Shown one piece after another: positions 1,260 to 43,985 of a stretch of DNA of 43,985 nt; the stretch's first letter is position 1, and every line of letters starts with the position of its first letter. The translations under genes and the position numbers were made by a program. The notes beneath the pieces were generated by a model that saw nothing but the letters and a program-made list of their open reading frames with translations, was not told where the DNA came from and searched no databases. Source of the DNA: Candidatus Omnitrophota bacterium (GTDB lineage: Bacteria > Hinthialibacterota > Hinthialibacteria > Hinthialibacterales > JAKPRU01); contig JAKPYU010000272.1 in NCBI GenBank assembly GCA_029568995.1, forward strand, positions 1 through 43,985. The letters are read 5' to 3'.

Positions 1260-1333
1260 GATTCTCTCTCCGATCCCTCAACACGTATTTATCGGCCCGC
1301 AATGCGAGCCGGCCACCACGAGCAGTAGAAGCG

Positions 1334-1363
1334 AAAAAAACACACCCTCACACCGAGTGTGTT
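1334..1363 (-). terminator. Terminator-like hairpin in the nrdJ leader (possible attenuator)
   Basis: On the minus strand AACACAC (1363-1357) pairs perfectly with GTGTGTT (1345-1339) around an 11-nt loop and runs into a T tract (1340-1334). This is the form of an intrinsic terminator, but it lies about 75 nt upstream of the nrdJ start and downstream of its promoter. An alternative hairpin pairs the same CACAC arm (1361-1357) with GTGTG (1353-1349) over a 3-nt loop. The two folds exclude each other. The stem is short, so termination efficiency is uncertain. Confidence 0.5.
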
Positions 1364-1397
1364 CAAAAAACAGTCAGTCCATCTTCAGGTGAACTTC

Positions 1398-1426
1398 ACC
1401 ATACGAGTTCTCGGACCGCCTGTCAA
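1398..1426 (-). promoter_or_regulatory. nrdJ sigma70-type promoter
   Basis: Reading the minus strand: TTGACA (1426-1421), 17 bp spacer, TATGGT (1403-1398). The expected transcription start is near 1391, giving a leader of about 130 nt. A 13-bp palindrome, GGTGAACTTCACC (1388-1400), overlaps the -10 and the start point. Confidence 0.75.
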
Positions 1427-1433
1427 GCTTTTT

Positions 1434-1449
1434 TTACAACATATCGTGC
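1434..1449. promoter_or_regulatory. NrdR box 1 (proximal)
   Basis: TTACAACATATCGTGC fits the NrdR box consensus acaCwAtATaTwGtgt at about 12 of 16 positions, including C-A-A, ATAT and the final GTG. It lies 7 bp upstream of the nrdJ -35. NrdR is the ATP-cone/zinc-ribbon repressor of ribonucleotide reductase genes. Confidence 0.75.
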
Positions 1450-1465
1450 TTTTTTTATGTCCAGT

Positions 1466-1481
1466 CACCTATATGTTGTAA
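1466..1481. promoter_or_regulatory. NrdR box 2 (distal)
   Basis: CACCTATATGTTGTAA matches the NrdR core CwAtATaTwG at 9 of 10 positions. It is offset by exactly 32 bp (three helical turns) from box 1, the spacing typical of tandem NrdR boxes. The stretch from 1482 to 1611 holds no gene that I can support, only a small GACGG/CCGTC hairpin (1559-1572). Confidence 0.75.
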
Positions 1482-1611
1482 AATGAACATCTGGCAGAAG
1501 AGGAACTAACCACCTTGGCTTACTTGATTTAGGTCCGAAAACCTCCAATAGAATCACGACGGATTCCCGTCAGATCGCGGTGGTTCGGACGGCAAAAAGA
1601 GATTCTGCGGG

Positions 1612-39271: not shown

Positions 39272-40702
39272 ATGGCAAAACGAACGATCACTCCACGATC
39301 CGAGGATTACTCCCAGTGGTATGTCGATGTGGTTCTGCAAGCGCAAATGGCCGATTACGCGCCGGTGAAGGGCTGCATGGTCATCCGTCCGAATGGATAC
39401 GCAATCTGGGAGAAAATGCAGGCCGCACTCGATGGCATGTTCAAAGAGACTGGCCACCAGAACGCCTATTTTCCTCTATTGATCCCGGAGAGTTTCCTGC
39501 ACAAAGAAGCGGAACACGTGGAGGGATTCTCCCCGGAGTGCGCCGTGGTCACTCACGGCGGCGGCAAGCCGCTGGAGGAACCGCTGGTCATCCGTCCCAC
39601 ATCGGAGACCATCATCTGGGCGATGTACAAGAAGTGGATCGACTCTCATCGCGATTTGCCCCTGCTCTATAACCAGTGGGCCAACGTCGTTCGCTGGGAA
39701 ATGCGCACCCGCCTGTTCCTGCGCACCACGGAATTCCTCTGGCAGGAGGGACACACCGCTCATGCAACCGATGAGGAGGCGGAAGAAGAAACCCTGCGGA
39801 TGCTCGGCGTCTATCGGAAATTCGCCGAGGAATACATGGCCATGCCTGTGATCTGCGGCCGCAAAACCGAGAAAGAAAAATTCGCCGGGGCCGTGCGGAC
39901 TTACTGTATCGAGGCCATGATGCAGGATGGCCGCGCCTTGCAGGCCGGAACTTCCCACAATCTCGGCCAGAACTTCGCCAAGGCCTTTGATGTAACCTTC
40001 CAGGACGAACAGGGCCAACGCCAGTATGTCTACGCCACCAGTTGGGGAGTCTCCACCCGGCTGATCGGCGGAGTGATTATGACTCATAGCGATGATGACG
40101 GCCTCGTGGTTCCGCCCCGTCTGGCCCCGCTGCCCGTGGTCATCGTTCCGATATGGCCGAAAGAGGAACTGCGACCGACAGTCCTCGAAGGAATCGAGAG
40201 AATCACACGGGATTGGCGTGATCTGAAATTCCATGTCGATGCCCGCGAGGGATACAAACCGGGATTCAAGTACAACGAGTGGGAGGTTCGCGGCGTTCCC
40301 ATTCGCGTGGAAGTCGGTCCCCGTGACCTCGAAAAGGAACAGGTCGTGTTTGTCCGCCGGGACAACGGTGAAAAGGTCTTTGTACCGGCATCCGAGGCGC
40401 GGGCAAGAATCGACGAGGTTTTGAATTCCATGCAGACAGGTCTTTTTGAGAACGCCCGGAAACGCATGGAAGATCGCACAGTCGGCATTGATGATTACGA
40501 AGAGATGAAACGGATGAACGAGGAGAACAGCGGTTTCTTCTGGGCACACTGGTGCGGCGAGCGTGCCTGCGAGGACCGCTTGCAGGAAGAAACCAAGGCC
40601 ACCATTCGATGCCTCCCGTTCGACCGACCGAAAGAGCCGGGGAAATGCCTCCTGTGCGGAAACCCCTCGCCCGAACGGGTCCTTATGGCAAAAGCGTATT
40701 GA
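39272..40702 (+). CDS. proS: Prolyl-tRNA synthetase, archaeal/eukaryal type
   Basis: A 476-residue class II synthetase that charges tRNA-Pro. Motif 2 region '[28 protein letters not shown]' and motif 3 region '[29 protein letters not shown]' are clear. The anticodon-binding domain begins near 287. The C-terminal zinc domain has four Cys (CGERAC...CLLC) and ends in the Tyr typical of this type. The bacterial-type editing insertion is absent. This ProS form occurs in scattered bacterial lineages through old transfer. The ATG follows a GAGGG site. Confidence 0.95.
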
Positions 40703-40703
40703 T

Positions 40704-40732
40704 AGGAGCGGGGGCGTCTCGCCCCCGACATG
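40704..40732 (+). promoter_or_regulatory. Ribosome site separated from the start codon by a GC hairpin
   Basis: AGGAG (40704-40708) is followed by GGGGGCG (40710-40716), loop TCT, CGCCCCC (40720-40726), then GAC and ATG (40730). In linear distance the ribosome site is 21 nt from the ATG; with the 17-nt hairpin folded, the effective gap is about 4 nt (10 nt to the ATG at 40736). The hairpin belongs to the same GGGGCG/CGCCCC repeat family as the one at 8204. Confidence 0.5.
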
Positions 40733-41590
40733 ACTATGAAGCTAGGTATTCTCACCGATTTCTCCGAAGAACGGATTCGCCTGGCGGGAACGGTCGGATT
40801 CGACTGTGTCAGCATCCTGGCCGACCCCCGCAACAAGGCGGGAAAACTCATTGCCACGCAAGGAGGCCGTCAAAAAATTCTGGAAACCTGCCAAAAATAC
40901 AATGTGGAGATCCGTGCGATCACCGCATATCGTCTGTATATAGATCCCAACCCAAAAGTGCGCCGAGATGCGGCAGCCTGGTTTCGAACCGTGGTGAAAG
41001 CAGCCTGCGAAATGGGAGTATCCGTCATCCCCGCACTGACCGGACGCGATCCGTCAAAGTCCATCGAAGAAAGCATTCCGCAGTTCCAGAAAATCTGGAC
41101 GCCGTTGGCCCAATTCGCAGAGGATCATGGGGTCAAAGTCGCTTTCGAAAATTGGCCCGGTGGCTGGGATATCAACCATGGCATCAACATCGCCGTTTGC
41201 CCAAAGGCCTGGCGACTCATGTTCGACGCGGTTCCGAGTAAGGCGCTCGGACTGGAATTCGACCCGTCACACCTCTATTGGCAGCAGATTGACTTTGTTC
41301 GCGCTGTCCATGAATTCGGATCGCGCATTTACCACGTGCATCTGAAAGACACGGAGATCCTGAAGGACAATCTGTACGAGACAGGAATCACACGTGGGTC
41401 CTTTCGATTCCGAATCCCCGGATGGGGAGAGATCGACTGGCCTGCTTTCTTCACTGCGCTTGTGGAAATCCGGTATCGGGGCGGGATGGTGATCGAGCAC
41501 GAAGATCCGGTTTTCAGCGGCAAGGACTTCGACGAAGGATTTCGGCTGGGATACCGGTTTCTTAAGCCGCTGATCCCGCAGTTGGTTTGA
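40730..41590 (+). CDS. Sugar phosphate isomerase/epimerase-like TIM barrel
   Basis: A 286-residue protein of the AP-endonuclease-2/xylose-isomerase-like family: 'KLGILTDFSEERIRLAGTVGFDCVSIL', 'VKVAFENWPGG' (metal Glu), 'LGLEFDPSHLYWQQ' (Asp and His), 'IYHVHLKDTEI' (His, Asp) and 'GMVIEHEDPVFSG' (Glu). The metal site is complete, so isomerase, epimerase or dehydratase activity on a sugar or inositol is plausible; the substrate is not readable. The ATGs at 40730 and 40736 are both possible, and the second matches the usual start MKLGILTD. It lies 27 bp after proS and is probably co-transcribed. Confidence 0.82.
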   Translation: MTMKLGILTDFSEERIRLAGTVGFDCVSILADPRNKAGKLIATQGGRQKILETCQKYNVEIRAITAYRLYIDPNPKVRRDAAAWFRTVVKAACEMGVSVIPALTGRDPSKSIEESIPQFQKIWTPLAQFAEDHGVKVAFENWPGGWDINHGINIAVCPKAWRLMFDAVPSKALGLEFDPSHLYWQQIDFVRAVHEFGSRIYHVHLKDTEILKDNLYETGITRGSFRFRIPGWGEIDWPAFFTALVEIRYRGGMVIEHEDPVFSGKDFDEGFRLGYRFLKPLIPQLV

Positions 41591-41636: not shown

Positions 41637-41834
41637 TTACCTGACCGCCGCACCTTCCCAGATGTCACTCAGCATTCTCAGCATTTCACGAGACCGATTC
41701 AGAATCACATCAACCGCTTCACGCTGGTCCGGGGTCATCGCCCCGTAATCTCCGGCCTGAAGGGCTTCCGCATATCCGATGACCACAGTCAGCGGAGTCT
41801 TGAGACTATGAACTTCCTGGTCGTTTAGAGACAT
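41637..41834 (-). CDS. Orphan histidine-kinase dimerisation/phospho-acceptor (HisKA) domain, 65 aa
   Basis: The whole protein is a single DHp helical hairpin: MSLNDQEVHSLKTPLTVVIGYAEALQ, a connecting loop, then helix 2 'PDQREAVDVILNRSREMLRMLSDIWEG'. HSLKTPL matches the H-box HELRTPL with the phospho-acceptor His kept (His9). No ATPase domain follows; the next DNA is the end of the convergent isomerase gene. It has its own promoter overlapping the end of the large kinase gene. The ATG at 41834 follows GGTGG; a TTG at 41855 is also open. It could accept or pass on phosphate, or pair with full kinases. Confidence 0.7.
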   Translation of the reverse strand: MSLNDQEVHSLKTPLTVVIGYAEALQAGDYGAMTPDQREAVDVILNRSREMLRMLSDIWEGAAVR

Positions 41835-41876
41835 TTTCCACCCAACTTCTTTCAATTCAGAATTGCATCAACATTC

Positions 41877-41906
41877 ATTATACTCCCAAACAGATCTGCT
41901 ATGCAA
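41877..41906 (-). promoter_or_regulatory. Promoter of the orphan HisKA gene
   Basis: Minus strand TTGCAT (41906-41901), 18 bp, perfect TATAAT (41882-41877). The -35 lies over the last codons of the upstream kinase gene. The predicted start near 41870 gives a leader of about 36 nt. Confidence 0.6.
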
Positions 41907-43985
41907 ATCCATTTTCAGGCTTTGCAGGAGCGAAAACTGCCTGGGAATCCATATTGCGGGCCATCTCCCCGGACACAAGGGGAAGGGTAAACTGAACAGC
42001 CGTTCCCCGACCGGTCCCTCTGCTTTCAATCCAGATACGACCTCCCATCAACTTGACCAGCTGTTTGCAGATCGCCAAGCCCAATCCGGTGCCCCCGTGT
42101 GAGCGTGTTGATAACCCATCCACTTGCCGAAACGCCTCAAAAACCAGGTCCTGCATGTCCTTGGGAATTCCGATTCCGGTGTCCCGCACTTCGACCTGCA
42201 CATAGCCCGGTTCCTGCTCGTAGACCGCCCGAACCATGATGTGGCCTTCCGGCGTAAACTTGATGGCATTCGATACCAGGTTCAGCAGAACTCGAATCAC
42301 TTTCTCCCGGTCCCCGTAAATGGGGGGTCTCTCCGGCGAGATCTTCTCAAACTCCAACAGAAGCCCTTTTTCCCGCGCCTGCACATGACTGATGGAGCGA
42401 ACCTCCGAAAACACTTCATCAAGCGAGACCGACTGGAGATGAACCGGCACTTCCGAAGATTCCAACTTGGCGATGTCCAGTATGTCATTGATCAGTCCCA
42501 GAAGATGTCGGGAACTTCGGTGGATACTCCCCAGGAATTCCATGGCCTCGTCCCGTGGCAAAACCGGTTCCTCCAGAAGAAGGGTCGTAAATCCGAGAAT
42601 CGAATTCAGCGGGGTTCGAAGTTCATGCGATGTATTCGCCAGGAATTCATCCTTGACCTTGGCAAGCCGTTCCAACCGTTCGTTTAACAGGGTCAATTCC
42701 TGGTTATCCTGCAGGATCCGTTCCTCCAGAAGACGGCGCTCTGTGATATTCCGCATGACACCAAGAAGTCCCGTGGAACTGTCCTGCAACTGGAGCGGTT
42801 TTTCAGTAACCTCAAACAGAACACGCCGCTGCTGAAAATCATAAATCTCCAGCAGGTACGGTTTGCCGTCCCGCAACTCGGAAGATTGTCCCTGTTTCTC
42901 GGTCAGGATCTTGTTGAGCGGATTATCGGTGAGATATTTCTGCCGGTTCACCGCAAATTCCTCGATCCCATATCCAAGCGTTTCTTCAAAAGACTTGTTG
43001 CAATACAGGTAAGCCCCTCGGTTATCTGCCATGTAGACGATATCGTTGATCTCTCCAACGCTCTCCAGCAAGAACCGATATCGCTGCTCCCGATCGGCCA
43101 GTTCATTGAACATCCGCCTGCGTTCCGTCAGATCTCGAAGCATGAACAAGACATGCGTATGCCCCTTGTGTGTAAGGACTTTCCCACGCATTTCCGCCCA
43201 CACGACACGTCCGGTCAATGAGATCAACTGGACTTCTTCGACCACGGTTTCCCCCTGCTGGCTTCTCCGAAGGAGATGGTCGAACTTGCTCCGACTTTCG
43301 AGGCCGACCAGATCCCTCAGACAGTGACGGCTGATATCTTCCGATGCAATGTCCAGCATAAGACAAACGGTGCGGTTACCGGAAATCATCTTCCCATCCT
43401 GCAGCGACACAAGCGCCACAGCATATTCCGCCTCCTCGCACGGCTGGCTCCCCGGTTCTTCCAGCGAGGAATAGACCGAGAAGAGACGCATGTTCGATAG
43501 GGCCGGTCCCAGGTGCTGTGCAAGCAGGAGCAGCACCCTCTCATGCTCACTCTGAAATGCATGAGACTTCCTGGCAAACAAGGCCAGGACTCCCACAAAC
43601 CTCTTGTTGTCCCGCAAGGGCACGGCGACACAAGAGTTGACCCGGGCCATTTCCAACACCATCCGCTCCGCCGGGTCCAATACCTCCAAACTCTCCGCAA
43701 CCCATTTGATATCCCCCTGCAGCGCCCGAATCAGCAGGCTGGTTGGCGACGAGGACACCGGCAACAGGTCCAAGTGAGGTACGGTCTCCGTGGATACATA
43801 GAGATGAAGTGTCTCATCCAGCTCGTCCCGCGCAAAAAGGATCGCCTCGTCATGAGGGACCATGATGCGAAGATGCCCGGAAAGCTCCCGCAAACCCCTC
43901 CGCATATCCAGGCTGGATCGGAAAGAACCAACCCAGAAAGCCAACTGTGTCTCTTCTTCACTCCGACGATAAATGCTGACACGCC
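41899..43985 (-). CDS. GAF/PAS hybrid sensor histidine kinase, N-terminus beyond the window
   Basis: The reading frame is open to the right edge ('VSIYRRSEEETQLAFWVGSF'), so the true start is outside. Counting from the codon at 43944, residues 20-160 are a GAF-like domain ('SCVAVPLRDNKRFVGVLALFARKSHAF'). Residues 175-275 are a first PAS ('GRVVWAEMRGKVL...LRDLTERR') and about 285-405 a second PAS with PAC end ('GLLGVMRNITERR'). A coiled linker precedes HisKA with SHELRTPL (His440). HATPase N box 'NLVSNAIKFT' (about 555), G1 DTGIGIP and G2 GGTGLGLAI follow. There are no transmembrane helices in the visible part, so it is probably a cytoplasmic sensor. There is no receiver domain. Confidence 0.9.
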   Translation of the reverse strand, partial: RVSIYRRSEEETQLAFWVGSFRSSLDMRRGLRELSGHLRIMVPHDEAILFARDELDETLHLYVSTETVPHLDLLPVSSSPTSLLIRALQGDIKWVAESLEVLDPAERMVLEMARVNSCVAVPLRDNKRFVGVLALFARKSHAFQSEHERVLLLLAQHLGPALSNMRLFSVYSSLEEPGSQPCEEAEYAVALVSLQDGKMISGNRTVCLMLDIASEDISRHCLRDLVGLESRSKFDHLLRRSQQGETVVEEVQLISLTGRVVWAEMRGKVLTHKGHTHVLFMLRDLTERRRMFNELADREQRYRFLLESVGEINDIVYMADNRGAYLYCNKSFEETLGYGIEEFAVNRQKYLTDNPLNKILTEKQGQSSELRDGKPYLLEIYDFQQRRVLFEVTEKPLQLQDSSTGLLGVMRNITERRLLEERILQDNQELTLLNERLERLAKVKDEFLANTSHELRTPLNSILGFTTLLLEEPVLPRDEAMEFLGSIHRSSRHLLGLINDILDIAKLESSEVPVHLQSVSLDEVFSEVRSISHVQAREKGLLLEFEKISPERPPIYGDREKVIRVLLNLVSNAIKFTPEGHIMVRAVYEQEPGYVQVEVRDTGIGIPKDMQDLVFEAFRQVDGLSTRSHGGTGLGLAICKQLVKLMGGRIWIESRGTGRGTAVQFTLPLVSGEMARNMDSQAVFAPAKPENGFA

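Follow-up and report, generated by a model that had tools for sequence, protein, structure and literature searches.

Spo0B of Bacillus is a dimerising helical hairpin that carries a phosphorelay histidine and has no known kinase activity, and it bears a degenerate ATPase-like domain in addition to the hairpin. Among full kinases, EnvZ has an aspartate directly after its phosphoacceptor histidine, i.e., at position H+1. According to the cited sections of a study of HisKA kinases, the acid at H+1 is required for kinase but not for phosphatase activity, while the Thr or Asn at H+4 is required for phosphatase but not for kinase activity (PMC3510030). The same sections give the DHp alone of EnvZ and of NtrB as sufficient for phosphatase activity and describe that activity as far weaker when the ATPase domain is missing (PMC3510030). 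Proteins with a HisKA domain and no ATPase domain have also been recorded in surveys. The 'phosphotransfer proteins' of P2CS are defined by HisKA or HPt with neither HATPase nor receiver (PMC2716373), one HisKA-only protein has been counted in Azospirillum brasilense CBG497 (PMC4618731), standalone HisKA proteins are mentioned for thermophilic cyanobacteria (PMC9953108), and archaeal HisKA proteins without HATPase have been discussed, with phosphatase activity suggested for them (PMC5847659). Such proteins are easily dismissed as incomplete kinases, and within the open-licence literature we found no characterised natural stand-alone HisKA protein.

The window, i.e., the whole 43,985-nt stretch of DNA analysed here, holds a new, conserved and unusually small example of this HisKA-only class. 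A preliminary description of the locus knew of no described system of this exact form, a claim that is not supported in view of the P2CS class, the A. brasilense CBG497 count and the archaeal proteins (PMC2716373, PMC4618731, PMC5847659). By domain content the 65-aa protein falls within the P2CS definition, which is that of a survey category, the likeness being one of class definition (PMC2716373). The archaeal proteins share with it a conserved histidine and the lack of HATPase, but in the account given of them they bear N-terminal PAS/GAF or other sensor domains, whereas the protein described here is the hairpin alone (PMC5847659). The isolated EnvZ and NtrB domains are bare DHp as here, but they are laboratory-made fragments of full kinases, and NtrB, unlike our protein, has an acid at H+1 (E140; PMC3510030). 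Since the protein is near the smallest possible size and is kept by selection beside one kinase, it is well suited to testing what a lone DHp does in nature, be it phosphatase, relay or kinase blocker.

The gene lies on the minus strand at 41637..41834 (coordinates including the stop), running from an ATG at 41834 through 65 codons down to 41637, and is supported by its frame, Pfam, alignment, simulation and a structure model. Just 5' of the ATG stands GGGTGG (41838..41843, minus strand), a weak, close Shine-Dalgarno-like stretch found by sequence and alignment that reads GGGTGA in the two relatives from the same genus. A 72-aa version starting from a TTG at 41855 was rejected because in both relatives a stop intervenes between the TTG position and the start codon, leaving an open frame of 66 aa. 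Neither flank of the gene matched an RNA family, and a hairpin 3' of it, suggested by eye, was dropped as the folds from three species disagreed.

Upstream lies the 3' part of a sensor histidine kinase gene (41899..43985, minus strand), whose frame leaves the contig end and whose domains, by the frame list and Pfam, are GAF, PAS, PAS, HisKA and HATPase_c, without a receiver. In full form this kinase has about 936 aa (G001). In its own assembly the kinase gene is divided between two contigs, with the N-terminal part at G000:C326:3943-4773 overlapping the window part, which ends at 43985, by about 45 query residues. Two convergent plus-strand genes, identified from the frame list and locus comparison, occupy the other side. 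The more distant (39272..40702), which we take to be a class II prolyl-tRNA synthetase-like gene, is conserved across the three species, and the nearer (40730..41590), presumably sugar isomerase-like, is broken in the two relatives whereas the DHp frame is intact there. In the relative locus L019 just a stretch resembling the C-terminal end of the isomerase is left, at 1296-1526 (minus strand) beside the prolyl-tRNA synthetase-like gene, which suggests that the isomerase-like gene was deleted in the relatives.

Orthologs of the DHp gene were found in both of the other genus genomes examined, in the same place behind the same kinase and with exactly 65 codons, and the proteins are 85 and 86% identical to ours. 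Each relative differs from the window gene at 31 nucleotides, 21 or 22 of them at third codon positions, with no indel, giving dN/dS values of 0.12 and 0.10 (NG86). For comparison, dN/dS was 0.11 over 679 codons of the neighbouring kinase and 0.03 for the prolyl-tRNA synthetase-like gene. When the frame was evolved neutrally with the same number of changes as observed, none of 20,000 simulations altered as few residues as the 10 seen, and 11,273 acquired a stop. Residue changes are likewise few (12 of 64) in one reverse-strand frame of the alignment, which third-position changes would be expected to produce, yet that frame has stops in both sequences. The two relatives (L019 and L020) are one residue apart in this protein, therefore the conservation amounts in effect to one independent comparison. 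Judged by these alignments, the DHp frame is a true gene under purifying selection at the protein level, and that selection, by the same measure, is equal to that on the adjacent kinase.

These data also bear on whether the frame is left over from a lost kinase and either persists by chance or goes untranslated, an objection that the preliminary description had itself raised. Its shortness and a Pfam match limited to model positions 11-57 of 66 could be taken that way. The low dN/dS with its excess of third-position changes, the simulations, and the unchanged length and position across the three species all disfavour it, as does the finding, by reading the three forward frames, of no ATPase-like long frame in the 600 nt downstream. 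We regard the remnant explanation as nearly excluded.

As to what the protein is, the description of a 65-residue lone DHp hairpin with its histidine kept and no ATPase domain, encoded behind a large kinase, is borne out by the ATG frame, by Pfam and by the structure model. Pfam HisKA (PF00512) matches residues 9-58 with an E-value of 2.6e-11 and 43.8 bits against a cut-off of 26.9. At E-values up to 1 Pfam finds nothing else in the 65-aa protein, HATPase_c being absent and no Spo0B model matching. The AlphaFold2 monomer, made from a 17-row alignment, is a two-helix hairpin (helices 5-27 and 35-64; mean pLDDT 92). Its nearest structures by Foldseek are the DHp domains of RetS, GacS and ERS1, with E-values of 0.04 and weaker at probabilities near 1, and none had an E-value below 0.001. 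We consider it a dedicated DHp-only signalling protein, its probable targets being the proteins with which full kinases signal.

The residues around the histidine bear on how it might act. The phosphoacceptor His9 is invariant across the three orthologs and throughout the 19 rows of an alignment (A2) since superseded by A3, which omits rows L032 and L031. The H-box of the window protein reads H-S-L-K-T-P and the orthologs share H-[S/T]-L-K-T-P-L, so that H+4 is a threonine (Thr13) while H+1 is S, T and T in the three proteins, the usual (though not strictly defining) HisKA acid, E or D, being missing. Among the other HisKA domains of the same genome, H+1 is E or D in 28 of 29 and Q in the remaining one, and H+4 is T or N in 24 of 29; this reading covers 29 of 37 other HisKA matches, one of which (L053, D) was read by eye. 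A non-acidic H+1 also occurs in a kinase with a full-length frame (L012), where it is T, and in E. coli PhoQ, an active kinase, which has S and reads HSLKTPL.

Loss of the H+1 acid and retention of the H+4 threonine, taken together with the sufficiency of the bare EnvZ and NtrB DHp, lead us to suggest tentatively, from sequence features, that the protein could be a trans-acting phosphatase of response regulators. The 89 receiver-domain matches in the genome, i.e., many possible clients, point the same way, and this function has likewise been proposed for the archaeal proteins (PMC5847659). The weakening of DHp phosphatase activity without the ATPase domain counts against it, as do the retention in all three orthologs of the histidine, a residue that might be dispensable in a pure phosphatase, and the lack of a receiver on the window contig or of any obvious one among the frames listed beside the most similar kinase. 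Furthermore, the example of PhoQ means that loss of the acid is no proof of lost phosphorylation, and the inference is a lean.

The retained histidine and the PhoQ sequence, that of a full kinase, would also suit a phosphotransfer hub, in which His9 would receive its phosphoryl group either in trans from a kinase's ATPase domain, the neighbouring kinase being one candidate, or by reverse transfer from a phosphorylated receiver, and would then hand it on in the manner of Spo0B or an HPt protein. P2CS files such proteins under phosphotransfer proteins, and the gene is always found behind the same kinase. This reading is doubtful, as the acid missing here proved necessary for kinase function in the tested HisKA proteins (PMC3510030), the neighbouring kinase has an intact DHp of its own (HELRTP), and the locus has no receiver or hybrid partner.

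The fold matches raise a further explanation. RetS is thought to block GacS through a mixed DHp bundle, and the best matches to our model come from the RetS/GacS DHp co-complex, so that a small stand-alone protein adjoining a kinase might form mixed bundles with a full kinase and block or titrate it. In the stand-alone protein helix 1 is polar at its upper end, which argues against such pairing, and the DHp of the adjacent kinase is identical to it at only 15 of 48 locally aligned positions, ranking 12th among the 29 HisKA domains of the genome. The earlier suggestion that the protein could dimerise with kinases is thus without sequence support in the case of the adjacent one, and we judge a kinase blocker to be unlikely, favouring the phosphatase over both this and the hub. 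With the same rank, an origin of the orphan by duplication of the neighbouring DHp is unsupported as well.

The kinase of the genome most similar to the orphan is L037 (16 of 50 residues identical). A target sought through its neighbourhood was dropped, there being no obvious receiver or response regulator among the frames listed there, and all 89 receiver matches of the genome lie on contigs other than that of the window. Elsewhere in the same genome, a 298-aa frame (L047; G000:C44:5234-5797, minus strand) combines receiver and HisKA matches.

If the protein is a response-regulator phosphatase, two copies would pair into the usual four-helix dimer, which would dock the receiver domains of response regulators encoded elsewhere in the genome. 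Thr13 would then position the attacking water, the most likely net effect being removal of the phosphoryl group from the response regulator, and the pathway served by the adjacent kinase, or by a different one, would thereby gain a kinase-independent off-rate or a buffer. A narrower version of this, in which the locus is a genus-specific minimal switch with a bare DHp phosphatase acting in trans and genetically tied to one sensor kinase, is a rather speculative proposal. If true, two genes would separately encode the kinase half and the phosphatase half of what is normally one bifunctional enzyme.

The preliminary description had the gene driven by its own promoter, with a perfect TATAAT and a -35 over the kinase stop codon. 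Of this the TATAAT (41877..41882, minus strand) holds, being exact and aligned in all three species, and it remains a candidate -10 box without a good -35. The -35 over the kinase stop, TTGCAT in the window and TTGCAC in the relatives, agrees with TTGACA at only three of six positions, with an 18-nt spacer. The window contains five TATAAT against 5.2 expected, and a promoter scan found no minus-strand site. A promoter of its own is therefore possible, the pattern not being significant even though the alignment conserves the TATAAT, and the gap of 64 nt between the kinase stop and the DHp gene (51 nt in the relatives) is just as consistent with transcription of the two genes together.

The search for similar stand-alone DHp genes, which had been proposed as a check, found them behind the same kinase in both genus relatives, and no ortholog beyond the genus. 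None turned up at an E-value of 1e-3 in the phylum set (14 genomes), where the other matches listed lie in frames of at least 289 aa, and across 386 genomes at 1e-6 all but the three orthologs, among the matches listed, were in frames of at least 306 aa. A scan of genome contigs recovered the same two relatives plus a Paenibacillus match confined to residues 9-36, and the viral contigs searched gave no match. A plasmid search returned 22 records, none of which reached 60% identity, and most of the annotated ones are kinase-like.

The HisKA model itself gave 565 matches in the 14 phylum genomes. Short HisKA frames (<130 aa) made up four of the 326 matches in 10 genomes, a count that covers all but G004, G005, G008 and G013, and they comprise the three orthologs and a 108-aa protein of G009. 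This second stand-alone HisKA-like protein (L061 1928-2254, minus strand, contig 939) has an H-D-L-N-N box and a HisKA score of 26.4, just under the cut-off of 26.9, and comes from a genome in another family of the phylum. Two further proteins, from G010 (C15) and G011 (C2), also have a DHp without an ATPase domain, but it is fused to a receiver and the acid after the histidine is kept. One of the two has 226 aa (L064 640-1320, plus strand) and the other 160 aa as listed, the receiver being cut at its start (L062 1721-2203, plus strand).
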